A stretch of DNA of 64,000 bases from assembly GCF_000744775.1 (NCBI RefSeq), contig NZ_JQMP01000004.1, forward strand, positions 248,001-312,000. The letters are read 5' to 3'. Origin of the DNA: Thermorudis peleae. Its GTDB lineage: Bacteria > Chloroflexota > Chloroflexia > Thermomicrobiales > Thermomicrobiaceae. The notes under the pieces are model-generated. The model was not told the origin of the DNA. It saw nothing but the letters and a program-made list of their open reading frames with translations, and ran no database searches. Both the position numbers and the translations under genes were made by a program. The stretch's first letter is position 1. Each line of letters opens with the position of its first letter. Shown here piece by piece: positions 11,030 to 19,294 of the stretch.

Positions 11030-11224
11030 TTACGGCAGTTCAGTCAGCTGCTTCGAAAGCTCACCAGCCGTTGGTGCATCGCTGAGTTGGCGACGCTGCG
11101 CGCGGAGCATCTCAACTTCTGCCCGAAGCGCTTGGATTTGCCGGTGCAGTGCCAGGATGTAGGCACCAAGGATAATCCACGTGATGAAGAACGCGGCAAA
11201 GAGATACACCAGGCCATGGGACAT
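11030..11224 (-). CDS. ccmD: CcmD-like small membrane protein
   Basis: A protein of 64 residues: one N-terminal membrane segment (LVYLFAAFFITWIILGAYIL) followed by a charged coiled-coil tail. This is the layout of CcmD, which holds CcmC and haem-loaded CcmE together with the CcmAB ATPase and helps release holo-CcmE. The place directly after ccmC supports the call, since sequence conservation in CcmD is very low. I chose ATG 11224, preceded by GAGAGGGG; a GTG at 11242 overlapping the ccmC stop is possible but would add six polar residues before the membrane segment. Confidence 0.75.
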   Translation of the reverse strand: MSHGLVYLFAAFFITWIILGAYILALHRQIQALRAEVEMLRAQRRQLSDAPTAGELSKQLTELP

Positions 11225-11238
11225 GTCGCAATCCCCTC

Positions 11239-11946
11239 TCACAACTCCTGGTCGCGGAGATCAACCAGGGTATCCTTCATGCGCTCAAGTTCATACTTCT
11301 CAACCAACAAGAACAGGTAGAGCACGAAGAAGGCAAGCAGGGTGACCAGCATGGTGAGCAGCATCGCGGGCGGCATTGCTGGTCCGCCCGAGCGAACGAC
11401 AACCGGCTGCGGATGAAGCGTCCGCCACCAGAGCACGGACATGTGAATGATCGGGACATCAACAAAGCCGATAATCCCGAGGACTGCCGCATACCGTGCC
11501 TTGCGCTCGGGATCACTGACGTAGGAGCGCAAGGCGAAATAGGCGAGGTAGATAAACCAGAGGATCAACGTTGTCGTCAGCCGCGCATCCCATGTCCACC
11601 AGGTGCCCCAAATAGGCCGGCCCCAAATTGACCCGGTGAGCAGAACCAGCGTCGTAAAGACAAAGCCAAGCTCAGCCGAGGCACGCGCCAGCCGGTCCCA
11701 ACCGGTCCGGTGCGTCAAGAGATAGGCAATGCTCGAGACAAAGATTAAAAAGAACGAGAAGTACGCCAGCCATGCCGCAGGCAAATGGAGGTAGAAGATC
11801 CGCTGCGGCTGCCCCTGGACACTATCGGTCGGCGCATAGAGGAAGATCAGGATAAGCGAGAGGGCAACAAGCCCAACACCAAGCCATCCAAGCAGCGGGG
11901 TAACCCACCAGGTCCCTCGTCGGGAGCGTGCGAGCGGAAGCTGCAT
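11239..11946 (-). CDS. ccmC: Haem exporter / haem-handling protein CcmC
   Basis: A protein of about 235 residues with six hydrophobic segments. The tryptophan-rich periplasmic motif reads WGTWWTWDARLT, the WWD signature of haem-handling proteins, with histidines in the flanking loops (FYLHLPAAW and IIHMSVLWW). CcmC binds haem and attaches it to CcmE during cytochrome c maturation. ATG 11946 follows AAAGGAAGGTGGT; an upstream GTG at 11991 would add 15 charged residues with no family similarity. It lies between ccmB and ccmD in the operon, the canonical order. Confidence 0.93.
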   Translation of the reverse strand: MQLPLARSRRGTWWVTPLLGWLGVGLVALSLILIFLYAPTDSVQGQPQRIFYLHLPAAWLAYFSFFLIFVSSIAYLLTHRTGWDRLARASAELGFVFTTLVLLTGSIWGRPIWGTWWTWDARLTTTLILWFIYLAYFALRSYVSDPERKARYAAVLGIIGFVDVPIIHMSVLWWRTLHPQPVVVRSGGPAMPPAMLLTMLVTLLAFFVLYLFLLVEKYELERMKDTLVDLRDQEL

Positions 11947-12003
11947 CACCACACCACCTTCCTTTTCCGGCACACAATCGTGCCTCACCACGTCACGAGC
12001 AGG

Positions 12004-12681
12004 CTAGTCCTCCGCGGCTGCGCCAAAGATCAGGTATCCAACACCCAGAAAGAGCAGATCAAACCCGGCCAGCAGCTGTATCCAGGCCCAGGCATCGCGG
12101 GGCTGCTCGGTGAGCACCAGCACGGTTGCCCGAACCGCAGCAATGACGACCGGAACAGCGAGCGGAAAGAGCATCACGGGCAAGAGCACCTCACGAGCCC
12201 GCGTCGTTGCCGCCATTGGCGACAGGAGCGTCCCGAGGAGTGCCAGGCCGATCGTCCCCAACGCAACGATCCCGATCACAGGAAGGCGCAACACTGGCAC
12301 GCCGAACAAGCCAGCAAAGAGCACCAACACCACGGCGTCGACCAGGCCAAGGAAGAGAAGACTGCTAACAAGCTTGGCGAGGAACAGCGTCCCGCGGTCG
12401 ATGGGACTCAGCAGCACGCCTTCCCACGCACCGTGCATTCGCTCGACCGATGCGCTACGCCCAAGCCCAAGCAGACTCGCGAAGATGAGTGCAACCCAGA
12501 GCGCACCTGCACCCGCGACAGCACGATTGACCCCGGTGAGGTCAAACGCAAAATTGAACGTGAGCAACGCAAGAACGGCGAAGAGCACCATGCCACTCAC
12601 AAGCTCGCGGCCCCGCCACTCAAGCACCACGTCTTTGCGCACGACTGCCGCGAGTTGGCGCACGGCACTAGGGACGGACAT
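12004..12681 (-). CDS. ccmB: Haem ABC exporter permease CcmB
   Basis: A protein of 225 residues with about six membrane segments. It belongs to the CcmB family: a cytoplasmic N-terminal helix (AVVRKDVVLEWRGRE), the first hydrophobic segment, and the conserved loop RMHGAWEGVLLSPIDRG. With CcmA it forms the ATPase complex that uses ATP to release holo-CcmE from CcmCD. I chose ATG 12681, which overlaps the end of ccmA by 14 bases; the longer open frame back to 12846 lies wholly within ccmA and is not credible. Length is normal for the family. Confidence 0.92.
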   Translation of the reverse strand: MSVPSAVRQLAAVVRKDVVLEWRGRELVSGMVLFAVLALLTFNFAFDLTGVNRAVAGAGALWVALIFASLLGLGRSASVERMHGAWEGVLLSPIDRGTLFLAKLVSSLLFLGLVDAVVLVLFAGLFGVPVLRLPVIGIVALGTIGLALLGTLLSPMAATTRAREVLLPVMLFPLAVPVVIAAVRATVLVLTEQPRDAWAWIQLLAGFDLLFLGVGYLIFGAAAED

Positions 12682-13396
12682 GGTCGCCTCCAACCGGCGC
12701 AGGGATCGGCGATGCTGCCTGGCCTTCCGGAAGAGGCCAGAGTTGGCCATCACACAACTGGAATTGCCGCGTTGCCACGGTGGTCGCAAAATCCACCGCG
12801 TGAGTCGTGAGCAGCACTGCCCCGCCGCGCTGGCAATGCTCAGCAATCAGCGCATGCAGCAACTGGCGCCCCTGTTGGTCAAGCCCTGTATCTGGTTCGT
12901 CAAAAAGCAGGATGGTGGGATCATGGAGCAGTGCCCGGGCTAAACCCGCGCGCTGTTGCTGCCCGCGTGACAGGGTGCGCACCCGCTCGTGCACCAGGTG
13001 GGCGATACCGAGGAGCTCGACGACACGGGCAATGCGAGCAGCGACGTTGTCGAGCGCATAGAGCCCAGCGTAGAGCCTGAGGTTCTCGGCAACGGTCAAA
13101 TCCTCGTAGAGCAGTGTCTGATGGCCAACAAAGCCGAGACGACGGCGAATCTGGGCAAGCGGCAAACCGGGCGTGTCGAAATACCAGACGGTGCCCGCAC
13201 TTGGACGAACCAGCGTGGCAAGGATGCGGAGCAACGTCGACTTCCCCGCGCCATTTGGCCCAACGATCACCACTGCCTCGCCTGGCCCAAGCGTCAAGGA
13301 GACATCGCGCAGGACGCGGCGCACGCCGTACCGCTTGCTGAGGCCAGTCGCACGAATCAGCGGCGAAACAGCAGCCATCGCTCGCTCCGTTGCCAT
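12668..13396 (-). CDS. ccmA: Haem ABC exporter ATP-binding protein CcmA
   Basis: A protein of 242 residues with a complete ABC ATPase domain: Walker A GPNGAGKST, Q-loop near HQTLLYEDLT, signature LSRGQQQR (usually LSGGQ), Walker B ILLFDEP and the switch histidine in LLTTH. CcmA energises the CcmABCD complex. It starts 6 bases after the stop of the CcmI-like gene and overlaps ccmB. The N-terminus (MATERAMAAVSPL) may be shorter in life, with an alternative ATG seven codons in. The C-terminal 20 residues are Pro/Gly rich and poorly conserved. Confidence 0.93.
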   Translation of the reverse strand: MATERAMAAVSPLIRATGLSKRYGVRRVLRDVSLTLGPGEAVVIVGPNGAGKSTLLRILATLVRPSAGTVWYFDTPGLPLAQIRRRLGFVGHQTLLYEDLTVAENLRLYAGLYALDNVAARIARVVELLGIAHLVHERVRTLSRGQQQRAGLARALLHDPTILLFDEPDTGLDQQGRQLLHALIAEHCQRGGAVLLTTHAVDFATTVATRQFQLCDGQLWPLPEGQAASPIPAPVGGDHVRP

Positions 13397-13402
13397 CAGT
13401 GA

Positions 13403-13774
13403 CTAGGCGCGCGACTGCCGGCCGGCAGACACGCTGGCACTTTGCGCAAGCCGGCGCAACTGCTCGATCTGCCGGTCAATCTCGGCGCTCACGACCTGCT
13501 CATACTGCTCGAGCTGGCGCACGATCTGAGCCGCATCGCGCAAGTAACTCTGGCGCGTCTCGCGATATTCTTGCTCGGTTATCTTGCCCGTCTCGCGGTC
13601 AAGCTCAAGATCCCGCAATGCTTGCACAAGCGCATCACGCTGCGCCAGGAGGTCAGCAAGCCGGGCTGTCGCCTCATCCGGTGCAGCACGCTCCCAGGCA
13701 CGAAGGAGCGGGGCAAGGACAAAGCCAAAGATGACAAGGGCAAGGACACCGATCAGGACATAGCTCCACCACAC
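13403..13774 (-). CDS. CcmI-like short membrane protein
   Basis: A protein of 123 residues: one N-terminal membrane anchor (residues 4-25) followed by a soluble helical coiled-coil region. The segment with ALRDLELDRETGKITEQEY matches the start of the CcmI/CycH family, where the N-terminal part is a membrane-anchored leucine-zipper-like unit. Proteobacterial CcmI goes on to a TPR domain that holds apocytochrome c; here that part is absent. The place between ccmH and ccmA supports a role in the haem ligation step. Functional equivalence to CcmI is inferred. Confidence 0.8.
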   Translation of the reverse strand: MWWSYVLIGVLALVIFGFVLAPLLRAWERAAPDEATARLADLLAQRDALVQALRDLELDRETGKITEQEYRETRQSYLRDAAQIVRQLEQYEQVVSAEIDRQIEQLRRLAQSASVSAGRQSRA

Positions 13775-13786
13775 GTGGCCGCCGCC

Positions 13787-14257
13787 TTACTCGCTGGTTA
13801 ACCAGCGCTGTGCTACCGCTTCAACATCGGTGAGATCCGTCTCGTCAGCCGGCTGCACTGCGCTCGGGCGCTTCCGACTCTGGAAATAGAGGGTGAGCAC
13901 AGCGATCCCGATCACGAGCCCCACGACCGGACCCCACCACAGCGTCCAGACAAAGCCTTCCTTCGGCGGATCACGCAGAATGCCAACGCCATAGCGCTGG
14001 ACAAAGTAGGCCTTGATCTGGTCAGGCGTTTGGCCGGCATCGAGCATCTGCTGGATGAGCTGGCGCATCTCGCCAGCAAGCTGCGAATTCGAATCACGCA
14101 CGCTTTGTCCTTCACAGACGGGGCAATTGAGCTCATTGGCAATCTTCAGCGCCTCAGGCGAAAGCCCCTCGGCGGCAAACACAGGATACGCTCCAGCAAG
14201 CAGGCTGAGGACGACCATGGCCAGCAGAAGCATGAGTCGATGATGGCATTGCCGCAT
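13787..14257 (-). CDS. ccmH: Cytochrome c maturation thiol reductase CcmH
   Basis: A protein of 156 residues. It has a signal peptide (about 1-28), then the CcmH domain with the redox motif LNCPVC followed by GQSVRDSNSQLAGEMR, then a membrane helix near residues 110-130 and a short acidic tail. CcmH keeps the CxxCH cysteines of apocytochrome c reduced and hands the polypeptide to CcmF. It starts 18 bases after ccmF ends and precedes the CcmI-like gene. The length matches single-domain CcmH (CcmL type). An SD-like AAGGAGGTG lies directly upstream. Confidence 0.93.
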   Translation of the reverse strand: MRQCHHRLMLLLAMVVLSLLAGAYPVFAAEGLSPEALKIANELNCPVCEGQSVRDSNSQLAGEMRQLIQQMLDAGQTPDQIKAYFVQRYGVGILRDPPKEGFVWTLWWGPVVGLVIGIAVLTLYFQSRKRPSAVQPADETDLTDVEAVAQRWLTSE

Positions 14258-14275: not shown

Positions 14276-16273
14276 CTAGGATGACGTCGCCTGGCTTGGC
14301 ACAGGCTCGGGCGCAGCGCGGCGAGCCGGCAGCCGCACCGCTGCAACTTGCGGCCAGAACAAGGTTAAGGTTCCAAGAATGTAGACGACACCACCCAGCC
14401 AGATCCAGCTGACCAACGGATTGAGATAGACTCGCAGACTTGCCGTGCCATCATTTTCCCAACGGTCGAGCACGACGTAGACGTCTGTCATCCCAAGTGT
14501 GGTAATCCCCATGCGGGCAGTTGGCTGGTCTTCATAGTTGCGGTAGAAGAAGCGATAGGTCGTGACGCTATCTTGTTGGCGACCATTGCGCAGAATCGAC
14601 ACCTGCGCCGCAATCACTTCAGCATCGGCGACCCGTTTGTCTTGCAGCCCGTTGTAGACGATGGTATACGGGCCGATCTGCCCCTGCTCGCCAGGCTTCA
14701 GGACAAACTGTCGCTCCTGCTGGAAGAGATTGGAGGCGATCACCCCGACGGCAATGCAGAGCATCGCCAGATGCACGATGTAGCCACCGTAGCGCCGGTT
14801 ATTCCGACGCAACAAGTGCACGAAAGCGGTCAGCACGGACTCATGTGCATTCCGCCGCCGCGCCAGCAGGGCATGGATGTACTCCAAAAGCGTGACAATC
14901 GCGGTGAATGCAACGACGGCATAGGCAACTGCGGCAACTGGCTTGCTCAAGAGGGCCAAGAGCGGAACCAGCACAAGACCAGCCCCAAGCAACGGCCAAC
15001 GCACTTGCCGCCAGAGTGGCCGCCAGGCGGTGCGCCGCCAGGCAAGCAACGGGCCAATCCCCATCAACGCAACGAGGACAAGCAGCAGTGGCCCATTCAC
15101 CTGGTTGTAGAACGGCGGCCCAACCGTCAGCTTGGTGCTTGAGAAGATTTCGCTAAAGAGGGGGAACACCGTCCCCCAGAACGTCGCAAATGCCATGGCC
15201 GTAAGCAGCAAATTGTTGAGGAGAAAGCCAGCTTCGCGCGATGTGACCGATTCAATGACCCGCTCACTCTGCAAGGAGGGAAGGCGATAGATCAGCAGGC
15301 CGATGCCGATAATGGTCACGGCAGCGACATACCCTAAGAACCATGGCGCGATGGGCGAGACGGCAAATGCATGGACGGACGAGAGGAGACCACTACGCAC
15401 GACAAATGTGCCGAAGACGGAGAGCAAGAACGAGGCAAGGAGCAGCGCCAGATTCCAGACCTTGAGCATGCCACGACGCTCTTGCACGATCACCGAATGC
15501 AAGAACGCGGTCGAGGTCAGCCACGGCAACAGTGCCAGGTTCTCAACTGGATCCCATCCCCAGTAGCCGCCCCATCCGAGAACGTGATAGGCCCACCAGG
15601 CACCGAGCAAGAGGCCGGTTCCGAGGATTCCCCACGCAATCAATGTCCAGCGACGAATTGCCCGCAGCCACTCTGCGCCCAGCCGCCCCGTGATCAAGGC
15701 AGCGGCACCGAAGGCAAACGGCACCGTAAAGCTCGCGTACCCAGCAAGCAAGAAGGGGGGATGGAACATCATCCCTGGGTCGCGGAGCAATGGGTTGAGG
15801 CCAGCGCCATCCGGCGGCGTCGTTGGCAAGAGGGTGAATGGGCTCGTCACGAAGTTGAGAATAACGAGCAAGTAGCCCATGACGGACAAGAGTGTTGCCG
15901 CAACATAGGGAATGAGCGCACGGTCACGGCGTCGATGGAGCACGAGCGCGAGCGAGCCAAGCAGGCCCACGATCATCGTCCAGTAGAGCAGGCTACCCTC
16001 CTGGCCACCCCAGAGCGCGGCTAGGACATACTGCGTCGGCATATCACGGCTTGACCGCCCGGCAACATAGGCAAGGCGGAAGTCATGGCGAAGGAAGGCG
16101 GTGACCAGTGCAGCGACCGCGATGACGATGAAGGCAGTCACCCCCCAGACAGCACGAATAGCGCTTTCAACGAGTTCCGCAAGCCGCCATCGTGCTCCGA
16201 CGATACTCGCTACCAGGCCATAGGCTGCAAGCACAAGTCCAAGGAGGAGCGATCCTGCGCCGATCTGCGCCAC
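14276..16273 (-). CDS. ccmF: Cytochrome c haem lyase subunit CcmF
   Basis: A polytopic membrane protein of 665 residues, full length for CcmF. The WWD haem-handling motif is at about residues 226-242 (WGGYWGWDPVENLALLPWL). Other conserved parts are an early GGQEGSLLYW segment and the late periplasmic loop before the last membrane helix. CcmF with CcmH and CcmI attaches haem from CcmE to apocytochrome c. It lies between ccmE and ccmH, as usual. No frame disruption is visible. Confidence 0.95.
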   Translation of the reverse strand: MAQIGAGSLLLGLVLAAYGLVASIVGARWRLAELVESAIRAVWGVTAFIVIAVAALVTAFLRHDFRLAYVAGRSSRDMPTQYVLAALWGGQEGSLLYWTMIVGLLGSLALVLHRRRDRALIPYVAATLLSVMGYLLVILNFVTSPFTLLPTTPPDGAGLNPLLRDPGMMFHPPFLLAGYASFTVPFAFGAAALITGRLGAEWLRAIRRWTLIAWGILGTGLLLGAWWAYHVLGWGGYWGWDPVENLALLPWLTSTAFLHSVIVQERRGMLKVWNLALLLASFLLSVFGTFVVRSGLLSSVHAFAVSPIAPWFLGYVAAVTIIGIGLLIYRLPSLQSERVIESVTSREAGFLLNNLLLTAMAFATFWGTVFPLFSEIFSSTKLTVGPPFYNQVNGPLLLVLVALMGIGPLLAWRRTAWRPLWRQVRWPLLGAGLVLVPLLALLSKPVAAVAYAVVAFTAIVTLLEYIHALLARRRNAHESVLTAFVHLLRRNNRRYGGYIVHLAMLCIAVGVIASNLFQQERQFVLKPGEQGQIGPYTIVYNGLQDKRVADAEVIAAQVSILRNGRQQDSVTTYRFFYRNYEDQPTARMGITTLGMTDVYVVLDRWENDGTASLRVYLNPLVSWIWLGGVVYILGTLTLFWPQVAAVRLPARRAAPEPVPSQATSS

Positions 16274-16307: not shown

Positions 16308-16763
16308 TCATTGCCCTTGCCCTGGCGTGGCTTGGGCCTGGAACTTTGACGGACACTGCGTCAACAGCGTATCAGCCTCCAGTGGTTGCCCTTGCCGGAA
16401 GACACCTTCGACGATCACTTGACGGCCATCGGTAAAGATGTCAGGCAAGACGCCGCTGTAGACGACGGGCAATGTCTGCTGGCCATCCGTAATGGCAAAA
16501 CGAATCGGCTCGCCTGGGCCACCAGTGTGGATTGAACCAGCGACGACCTGTCCGCCAACCCGGACGCGCTTCCCTTGGACCTCTGCGGCGCGCTGCTGCA
16601 GCTCACTGACCGTCACGAAGTATGACGCAGCAGTGCTCTGCAGGCTGGTGTACATGAGGTACCCCACCGCGCCCGCGATGATGAGCGCAGCAATCAACCA
16701 TCGGACATCGAGCCAGCGCCGTCGCGACCGCTCGACGGGCTGTGCGATCGCTGTCCCCGTCAT
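16308..16763 (-). CDS. ccmE: Haem chaperone CcmE with C-x3-F haem motif
   Basis: A protein of 151 residues: a membrane anchor (about residues 20-40) then the OB-fold periplasmic domain with GKRVRVGGQVV and FAITDGQQTLPVVYSG. CcmE carries haem covalently to CcmF. The haem attachment site of Escherichia coli CcmE is HxxxY, and variant CcmE proteins have CxxxY. Here the site reads QCPSKF, with C137 in the histidine position and F141 where tyrosine is expected. ATG 16763 follows AAGGAGGAG; the frame upstream to 16853 is not conserved. It lies between a CopD-like gene and ccmF. Confidence 0.92.
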   Translation of the reverse strand: MTGTAIAQPVERSRRRWLDVRWLIAALIIAGAVGYLMYTSLQSTAASYFVTVSELQQRAAEVQGKRVRVGGQVVAGSIHTGGPGEPIRFAITDGQQTLPVVYSGVLPDIFTDGRQVIVEGVFRQGQPLEADTLLTQCPSKFQAQATPGQGQ

Positions 16764-16782: not shown

Positions 16783-17280
16783 CTAGCGCTGGAGAACGGG
16801 GTACAGTGTGGCAAGCACGACACCAAGGAGATAGGCGAGCGAGCCGAGCGCAACGATCAGCCATGGTCGCGCATCGCCGAATCGGTTGGTGCGCCGTCGC
16901 GCCAACGGCCACGCCAACCAAAACGCTGCGACTGCTGCCCCCACCTTGAGGGCAAGCAAGAGTACGTAAGTTGCTGTCCCACGTCCATCGGCCAACCGGT
17001 CGAACATCAGCGGCACGCCCGTGGCGAGCAGCAACAACGTCGACGCGCTGGCCCAACGTGCGAACCGTCGCTGAGCCGCTGCGATCACGGCTGGCGCAGC
17101 ATCGACTCCCTGAGAGCGCAGGGGCCGCAATGCGAGCACGTAGTAGACACCCCCGCCAAGCCAAACTACTGCCGCTGCCGTATGCAGCAGGCGAAGCCCG
17201 ATGCGAAGAACTGTAGCGAGATCCACCGTTCTGCCGCACTTGCCCTTTTCGCACGCTACCCTCGCCACAAACCCTGGCAC
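16783..17280 (-). CDS. CopD-like four-helix membrane protein
   Basis: A protein of at most 165 residues with four hydrophobic segments. The first one reads LRLLHTAAAVVWLGGGVYYV, the pattern of copper-resistance protein D and related cytochrome-b561-like membrane proteins, with a histidine inside the helix and a WxGG turn. It is encoded between ccmG and ccmE on the same strand, 2 bases from one and 19 from the other, so it is very likely part of the ccm operon. A role in haem or copper handling for cytochrome or oxidase assembly is inferred. The start is uncertain: GTG 17280 or GTG 17226. A larger overlapping frame (16760-17383) is a shadow. Confidence 0.75.
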   Translation of the reverse strand: MPGFVARVACEKGKCGRTVDLATVLRIGLRLLHTAAAVVWLGGGVYYVLALRPLRSQGVDAAPAVIAAAQRRFARWASASTLLLLATGVPLMFDRLADGRGTATYVLLLALKVGAAVAAFWLAWPLARRRTNRFGDARPWLIVALGSLAYLLGVVLATLYPVLQR

Positions 17281-17282
17281 AC

Positions 17283-17876
17283 CTACGAGAGTGGTGCGCC
17301 GAGGTCACGGATGATCGACTCAAGCTGCTCAACTGACTTAATCGGCCCGGTGTACTTGCCCAGCAACCGGCCATCTGGCGCAATCACAAACGTCTCGGGA
17401 ACTCCGGAAACGCCATATTCAATCGCCACGTGGCCCGTGCTGTCAAGCGCGTTGGGATAGGCAAGGCCAAACTTGGCGATGAAGTCGCGGGCATCCGCCT
17501 CCGACTGTTCCCACAGGTCGATGCCCAGCAGGACAACGTTGCTGTTGGCGTGCCGCTGTGCGAATGCTTGCAGGACGGAAGCCTCGTCCTGGCATGGTGG
17601 GCACCAGGACCCCCAGAAGTTCAGGACCACCACTTTCCCACGGTACGAAGCGAGGGAGACGGGTTGACCATCAAATCCCGTCAACTGGAAGTCACCGGCA
17701 GTCCGCCCTTGAAAGCGATAGAGTTTGCCACCGGTGTTGATTTTGCCCCCTACGCCCAATTCTGATGAGGCCCGAGGAGATGCAATCGCGTAGGTGACAA
17801 CACCAAGGAGCCCAACGACGACAAGCGCGACAACGAGCGCGGGCAAGCGACTTCGCAGTGGATGCGTTGTGGCCAT
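17283..17876 (-). CDS. ccmG: Thiol-disulphide oxidoreductase CcmG/ResA
   Basis: A protein of 197 residues: an N-terminal membrane anchor (about residues 10-30), then a thioredoxin fold with NFWGSWCPPCQDEA and the cis-proline segment YGVSGVPETFVIAPDG. CcmG/ResA proteins reduce the haem-binding cysteines of apocytochrome c or CcmH. I chose ATG 17876; the frame continues upstream to 18080 into the end of murA but without homology. It is the first gene of the ccm operon, 92 bases downstream of murA. That gap holds a small dyad (CCTGCAC, GTGCAGG) but no convincing terminator. Confidence 0.93.
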   Translation of the reverse strand: MATTHPLRSRLPALVVALVVVGLLGVVTYAIASPRASSELGVGGKINTGGKLYRFQGRTAGDFQLTGFDGQPVSLASYRGKVVVLNFWGSWCPPCQDEASVLQAFAQRHANSNVVLLGIDLWEQSEADARDFIAKFGLAYPNALDSTGHVAIEYGVSGVPETFVIAPDGRLLGKYTGPIKSVEQLESIIRDLGAPLS

Positions 17877-17968
17877 CTTCACCGATGACCTTTCGCTCAG
17901 CGCCTGCACCCAGGTCGTGCAGGTCTTCACAAAGCAAGTATGTCCCAGCCGAGCGAGGATTGCTAGCG

Positions 17969-19294
17969 TCAGGATGAGGCGGCAAGGTCGTTGGCGTAGC
18001 CGATGTCGGCGCCGAGTGAGGCAAGCTTGCCAACCAGATCTTCGTAGCCGCGACGCAAGTGATAGGCATCGTGAATCCAAGTTTCGCCGTCAGCGACGAG
18101 TCCAGCCAGGACGAGGCAGGCACCGCTGCGAATATCGAGGGCTCGCACCGGTGCACCATGGAGCGGCGTCGGGCCTTCGATGAGGGCTTCTTGTTTATCA
18201 AGCACCTGAATCCGTGCACCCATCTTGGCCAACTCGGCGGCATAGCGTAAGCGATCGTTGAAGATCCGCTCGACGATTCGACTCCGCCCATGTGCCTGCG
18301 TCAGCAACGCGGCGAAGGCGGCTTGCAGGTCCGTTGGGAAGCCCGGGAACGGCAGGGCCTGGATTTCCGTTGCCCGCAGGTGTCCCGTCCCACGAACCAG
18401 CATGGACGATTCAGCCCACCATACTTCTGCACCGGTTTCCCGGAGTTTGTAGGTCAACGGCGCCATATCGTCTTCGACGACGTGATCAATAATCACCTCG
18501 CCATCGGTCATCGCGGCGGCAATGGCAATCGTGCCGGCTTCGAGACGATCAGGGAGGATCGACGCACGATAGCCGCGCAACCGGTCAACCCCCTGCACAA
18601 CGAGCTTCGGCGTACCAATGCCATGGATGCGGGCACCCATATCGCGCAGGATGTTGCCAAGGTTCACAATTTCTGGCTCAGCTGCGGCGTTGAGGATGGT
18701 CGTCGTCCCCTGCGCGAGCGTGGCTGCCATCAGGACGTTGTAGGTGCCGGTATTGCTTGGGTAGTCCATGTAGATTTCACTGCCGCGCAGGCGCCCAGCC
18801 CGCATTTCGTAGGCGCCATCGACGAGCTCAATCGTCGCGCCGAGCTTGGCAAAACCGCGGAGATCGACATCGACCGGCCGGGAACCGAGCTGGCACCCTC
18901 CGGGTGGAATCGAACGCGCGCAGCCAAAACGAGCGAGGAGCGGGCCAGTCACTAAGAATGAAGCCCGCATGCGCGCCACGAGCTCTGGCGGCGCTTCAAA
19001 CGCGTGAATCGTAGCAGCGCAGATCCGCACACGATGCTGCTCAGGGTCGAGGTCAACCGTTGCACCGAGCTGGCGGAGGAGTTCGACCATGACCAGCACG
19101 TCTTCGATGATGGGCACGTTTTCTAACGTGCACTCTTCCTCCGTCAGCAACGCTGCTGCCATTGCCGGCAACGCTGCGTTCTTCGCACCCCCAATGGCAA
19201 CACGCCCATGCAACCGCGTCCGACCACGTACGACGATGCAATCACGCGCTGCTGCAACTACTGCCACGACTTCCGCCTCCGCTGCCGCGTCCAT
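17969..19294 (-). CDS. murA: UDP-N-acetylglucosamine 1-carboxyvinyltransferase MurA
   Basis: A protein of 441 residues; it transfers enolpyruvate from PEP to UDP-GlcNAc, the first committed step of peptidoglycan synthesis. Conserved parts: VRGRTRLHGRVAIGGAKNAAL near the N-terminus and PPGGCQLGSRPVD with the catalytic cysteine at about residue 134 (the fosfomycin target), followed by PSNTGTYNVLMAA. The N-terminal 15 residues (AAEAEVVAVVAAA) are not conserved, so a start slightly downstream is possible. The gene starts 35 bases after atpC and appears to belong to the same transcript. A cysteine at this position predicts normal fosfomycin sensitivity of the enzyme. Confidence 0.95.
   Translation of the reverse strand: MDAAAEAEVVAVVAAARDCIVVRGRTRLHGRVAIGGAKNAALPAMAAALLTEEECTLENVPIIEDVLVMVELLRQLGATVDLDPEQHRVRICAATIHAFEAPPELVARMRASFLVTGPLLARFGCARSIPPGGCQLGSRPVDVDLRGFAKLGATIELVDGAYEMRAGRLRGSEIYMDYPSNTGTYNVLMAATLAQGTTTILNAAAEPEIVNLGNILRDMGARIHGIGTPKLVVQGVDRLRGYRASILPDRLEAGTIAIAAAMTDGEVIIDHVVEDDMAPLTYKLRETGAEVWWAESSMLVRGTGHLRATEIQALPFPGFPTDLQAAFAALLTQAHGRSRIVERIFNDRLRYAAELAKMGARIQVLDKQEALIEGPTPLHGAPVRALDIRSGACLVLAGLVADGETWIHDAYHLRRGYEDLVGKLASLGADIGYANDLAASS

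Follow-up and report, generated by a model that had tools for sequence, protein, structure and literature searches.

The 64,000-nucleotide stretch of Thermorudis peleae DNA analysed here (the window) encodes a CcmE protein whose haem site reads CPSKF in place of the usual HxxxY. We estimate a probability of about 0.85 that this protein works as a haem chaperone of the Cys type (System I*-like) within a complete Ccm operon and that the tyrosine of the motif is dispensable to it. The variant is of a known kind; what the sampled sequences add is that the Cys/Phe form is fixed across a large part of Chloroflexota, mostly within a single large clade.

The ccmE gene and its operon

Over positions 16308-16763 the plus strand is interrupted by stops, so the ccmE ORF is read on the minus strand, from 16763 to 16308, with an AGGAGG immediately 5' of its ATG as a clear ribosome-binding site. 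The 151-amino-acid translation ends in DTLLTQCPSKFQAQATPGQGQ, and the codons of the CPSKF motif lie at approximately 16338..16355 on the minus strand, as placed from the sequence and the protein reading. The residue numbers given in the preliminary description are correct in this ORF: Cys137 stands where HxxxY has histidine and Phe141 where it has tyrosine, and the iron-ligating tyrosine is missing as described, Phe141 occupying the place of the residue that ligates iron in E. coli. The protein matches the Pfam CcmE family PF03100 with 101.6 bits against a curated cut-off of 24.6, and a PF03100 search found it to be the single CcmE of the genome. Its neighbours include ccmABC and ccmF, as expected for a member of the family, and C137 supplies the histidine or cysteine of the haem-attachment position, while the tyrosine at +4, the iron ligand, is replaced by F141. 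Tyrosine at that position is common in CcmE yet not defining, since the position varies within the family and phenylalanine occupies the Tyr134 position in about 3% of CcmE (PMC6204919).

The operon is transcribed from the minus strand. It opens with a ccmG/ResA-like gene for a thiol-disulfide protein with a WCPPC site (17283..18080; profile matches, with a true start that may be internal to the ORF), followed, immediately before ccmE, by a gene for a CopD-like membrane protein of four helices (16783..17280; profile match, locus comparison and predicted structure). After ccmE (16308..16763; translation and Pfam match) come ccmF, encoding the haem lyase subunit (14276..16273; profile matches and conserved residues), ccmH (13787..14257; profile match) and a short ccmI-like gene corresponding to the N-terminal part only (13403..13774; TIGR03142 at 21.4 bits, under its cut-off of 29.3). 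The series ends with ccmA (12668..13396; TIGR01189 above cut-off), ccmB with its start set at an internal ATG (12004..12681; profile match), ccmC with a WWD motif and two haem histidines (11239..11991; profile matches and conserved residues) and a ccmD-sized ORF of 64 amino acids (11030..11224; assigned by position and size). The earlier list of Ccm genes, CcmA-D, F, G and H, is thus accurate, CcmD by position and size, and a CcmI-like gene can be added to it.

Relation to described CcmE proteins

E. coli CcmE (PDB 1SR3, 8CE8) is homologous to the window protein (phmmer E 3e-13 to 8CE8) and holds the same place in the pathway, but it carries HxxxY, with a covalent His-haem bond and Tyr134 as iron ligand, whereas the window protein carries CPSKF. 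The System I* CcmE of Desulfovibrio and archaea, which belongs to the same family, shares with it the cysteine in place of the haem-binding histidine and the CPxxx pattern; the window differs in having phenylalanine rather than tyrosine at +4 and in possessing CcmG and CcmH. The original definition of System I* specifies that CcmH and CcmG are absent, whereas this operon has both ccmH and a ccmG-like gene. The window system is therefore a Cys-type CcmE system but not a reduced System I*, because the absence of CcmH is not characteristic of the Cys-type, about one third of Cys-type bacteria having CcmH (PMC3601427). For the same reason, the contrast that had been drawn with the described reduced systems stands as regards the presence of CcmG and CcmH here, but was overstated.

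Both surprises, the Cys-type CcmE with phenylalanine and the CcmH alongside it, have already been published in brief. The review by Stevens et al. 2011 (PMC3601427) reported Cys-type CcmE in delta-proteobacteria, Chloroflexi and Firmicutes, with CPSKY as the commonest motif (25 of 36) and a change of Y to F in four cases. These Phe-for-Tyr proteins resemble that of the window in being Cys-type, in a survey that names Chloroflexi and finds CcmH to be commonly present; they are given as a count, without distribution, neighbours or function.

Distribution of the motif

At the level of the order, 61 genomes (the window's own and 60 relatives) were searched with PF03100. The search found 26 CcmE proteins in 25 genomes, all 26 reading CPSKF or CPSRF; whether C-x3-F is lineage-wide, a check proposed in the preliminary description, can thus be answered in the affirmative. 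Such uniformity rules out both chance and a sequencing error as the source of the motif.

In a phylum sample of 400 Chloroflexota genomes, CcmE was found in 265, and motifs were taken from one to several per family (families bear arbitrary f-codes). CxxxF, CxxxY, HxxxY and HxxxF all occur, as does CxxxL. CxxxY is the motif with the most families, while CxxxF is found, for example, in families f1, f2, f10, f17, f27, f31, f36, f46, f49 and f72, the CxxxF group including Dictyobacter and Ktedonobacteraceae. HxxxY occurs in f14, f19, f24, f30, f40 and f62, HxxxF in f21, f33, f39 and f53, and CxxxL in f62. Among loci with enough flank, ccmH accompanied 25/32 CxxxF and 21/36 CxxxY forms. Proline follows the cysteine in nearly all Cys-type CcmE sampled; some Chloroflexota proteins of this type read CASKY or CASHY and so lack it (L037/L090, L069, L072 and L106). 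Family f13 has a tandem ccmE pair with CPSKY and CPH[SR]Y (L028 and L029), and genome G217 has two ccm loci, ccmE-A-B-C-G and ccmE-F-H-I (L086 and L087), both with a CPSKF CcmE.

Outside Chloroflexota, motif frequencies rest on 80 loci picked by similarity. The Cys-type loci of Acidobacteria, Latescibacterota, Nitrospinota, Deferribacteraceae, Desulfobulbaceae and others read CPSKY, as do two Bacillaceae plasmid CcmE with ccmH within the same operon, and three Myxococcota-type loci (L186, L201 and L205) read CPSKF.

History of the motif

A CcmE-only tree was poorly resolved, and relationships were read from a 120-row tree of CcmF together with CcmE stripped of its motif. Nearly all Chloroflexota non-Tyr CcmE form one clade of 66 rows with 100% SH-aLRT; it takes in the HxxxF and CxxxL proteins, and L093 is its only Tyr form. 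The CxxxF proteins of Myxococcota and of family f79 fall outside it, and on this tree CxxxF arose separately in Myxococcota. The nesting of HxxxF within an otherwise Cys-type clade implies at least one Cys-to-His change; two independent changes, as seen in the best tree, were not adopted, a single origin not being rejected (AU p 0.49).

These placements bear on current views of CcmE function. In models of holo-CcmE release, the haem iron exchanges a CcmC histidine for Tyr134 of CcmE (PMC9616876), and a phylum-scale clade with phenylalanine or even leucine at the Tyr134 position indicates that such an exchange of ligands is no general rule. Engineered Cys/His swaps in CcmE fail (PMC9084895), yet in this clade the attachment residue has itself changed naturally from Cys to His. 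The non-Tyr operons of Chloroflexota are useful natural test cases, even though the literature already contains the basic variant.

Function and haem ligation

The haem-ligating histidines of CcmC (69 and 193) are retained, with few exceptions, whatever the motif class, and those of CcmF (171, 259, 301 and 501) are conserved throughout. Among the proteins of the host are a lipoprotein cytochrome with CVACH and a CoxB fused to a CIGCH domain, and a search of its genome for ResB gave no match; Ccm is thus the apparent route of cytochrome c maturation in the host, and its CcmE most likely works. We infer from these genomic features that this C-x3-F CcmE is very probably the working haem chaperone; the literature searched held no experimental work on any protein with this motif.

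In the pathway proposed, CcmC would offer haem at its WWD/two-His site, and Cys137 of CcmE would take it up, most likely through a thioether to a vinyl group, although ferric thiolate ligation may also occur. Holo-CcmE would then be freed by CcmAB(D), and CcmF/H/I, with CcmG as reductant, would pass the haem on to apocytochromes. With Phe141 in the usual place of the tyrosine ligand, the iron of released holo-CcmE may be only loosely held, having just water or no ligand from the protein, or else a ligand supplied by a different residue of CcmE or by a partner protein, for example CcmF. The short C-terminal tails of the CcmE sequences compared contain no conserved Tyr, His, Met or Cys that might serve as a replacement. 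Simple tolerance of the loss is the most economical reading, because in E. coli CcmE the tyrosine (Tyr134) matters for efficiency without being indispensable (PMC6204919, PMC3601427).

A covalent link between Cys137 and haem is probable, because covalent haem has been shown on Cys-type CcmE from both D. desulfuricans and M. acetivorans (PMC3601427, PMC9084895). It is less than certain because D. vulgaris Cys-type CcmE reportedly binds ferric haem non-covalently via the cysteine (PMC3884852). That report, and the proline that makes the site resemble a Cys-Pro haem motif in nearly all Cys-type proteins, lend some colour to the idea that Cys137 is a non-covalent ferric thiolate ligand and a tyrosine ligand superfluous. 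This idea is nevertheless doubtful, given that most Cys-type CcmE retain the tyrosine, that HxxxF forms occur, and that the haem-stained adducts of M. acetivorans require the CcmE cysteine (PMC9084895). The loss of two textbook residues could instead mark a degenerate, non-functional protein or an error in the sequence, but this reading is refuted by the same motif in all relatives of the order and many other families, and it fits poorly with an intact operon in a genome that has neither a second CcmE nor ResB; we regard it as practically negligible.

The CopD-like neighbour and CcmF residue 230

A gene for the CopD-like protein, which has about 165 amino acids, lies directly upstream of ccmE only at non-Tyr loci: at 53/79 CxxxF, 6/6 HxxxF and the CxxxL loci, as against 0/83 CxxxY and 0/8 HxxxY loci. 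Several non-Tyr genomes without this adjacency have the gene elsewhere, family f17 between ccmG and ccmF. In a genome-wide search whose matches split cleanly (at least 96 bits versus at most about 55 bits), it was present in 23/28 non-Tyr and 4/42 Tyr-only genomes. The one further genome of this search, G281, has two CcmE (L123 and L210), one HSSVY without a CopD-like neighbour and one CPSRL adjoining the CopD-like gene. The protein is predicted to form a four-helix bundle (mean pLDDT 90.2) with R..H..A..W.GG and Y...L..K conserved, the Arg, His, Trp and Lys being invariant or nearly so. Foldseek returned no match to the model at E <= 0.001; in VIA-align, haem-binding four-helix bundles such as cytochrome b561 and bd subunits reached Z 8-10, a range common for helical bundles. 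Additionally, CcmF residue 230, beside the WWD loop, is His or Arg in 83/87 non-Tyr sequences.

These associations, with the conserved His and Lys of the membrane protein, would suit a scheme in which a partner compensates for the missing tyrosine, the CopD-like protein and/or the extra CcmF His/Arg ligating or handling the haem. We consider such compensation unlikely. It is not established by the associations, because the CopD-like gene and CcmF 230 both mark one clade, the independent CxxxF proteins of Myxococcota and f79 lack both traits, and the Tyr form L093 within the clade keeps the CcmF histidine. Families f28 and f79 have phenylalanine without a CopD-like gene of this type, and independent-pairs tests were not significant. 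The CopD-like protein was accordingly rejected as cause or consequence of the tyrosine loss, the strong raw association tracking one clade, and CcmF His230 as a compensating ligand is confounded by that same clade. The broader proposal of a Tyr-less System I in a large Chloroflexota clade, where the CopD-like protein (its gene lying between ccmG and either ccmE or ccmF) would be an overlooked Ccm component and, with the CcmF His/Arg, would replace the tyrosine in holding or releasing haem iron, is equally improbable.

Short of compensation, the CopD-like protein is a candidate for an additional Ccm component in a single Chloroflexota clade. The papers searched contained no mention of a CopD-like gene restricted to non-Tyr ccmE loci, and the association, which may be new, is the part most worth following. 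In CcmF of the non-Tyr clade, the His or Arg at 230 falls in the stretch WAY[HR]VLGWGGYW, and residue 165 is Asp, against mostly Asn in the Tyr group; both residues are markers of the clade.
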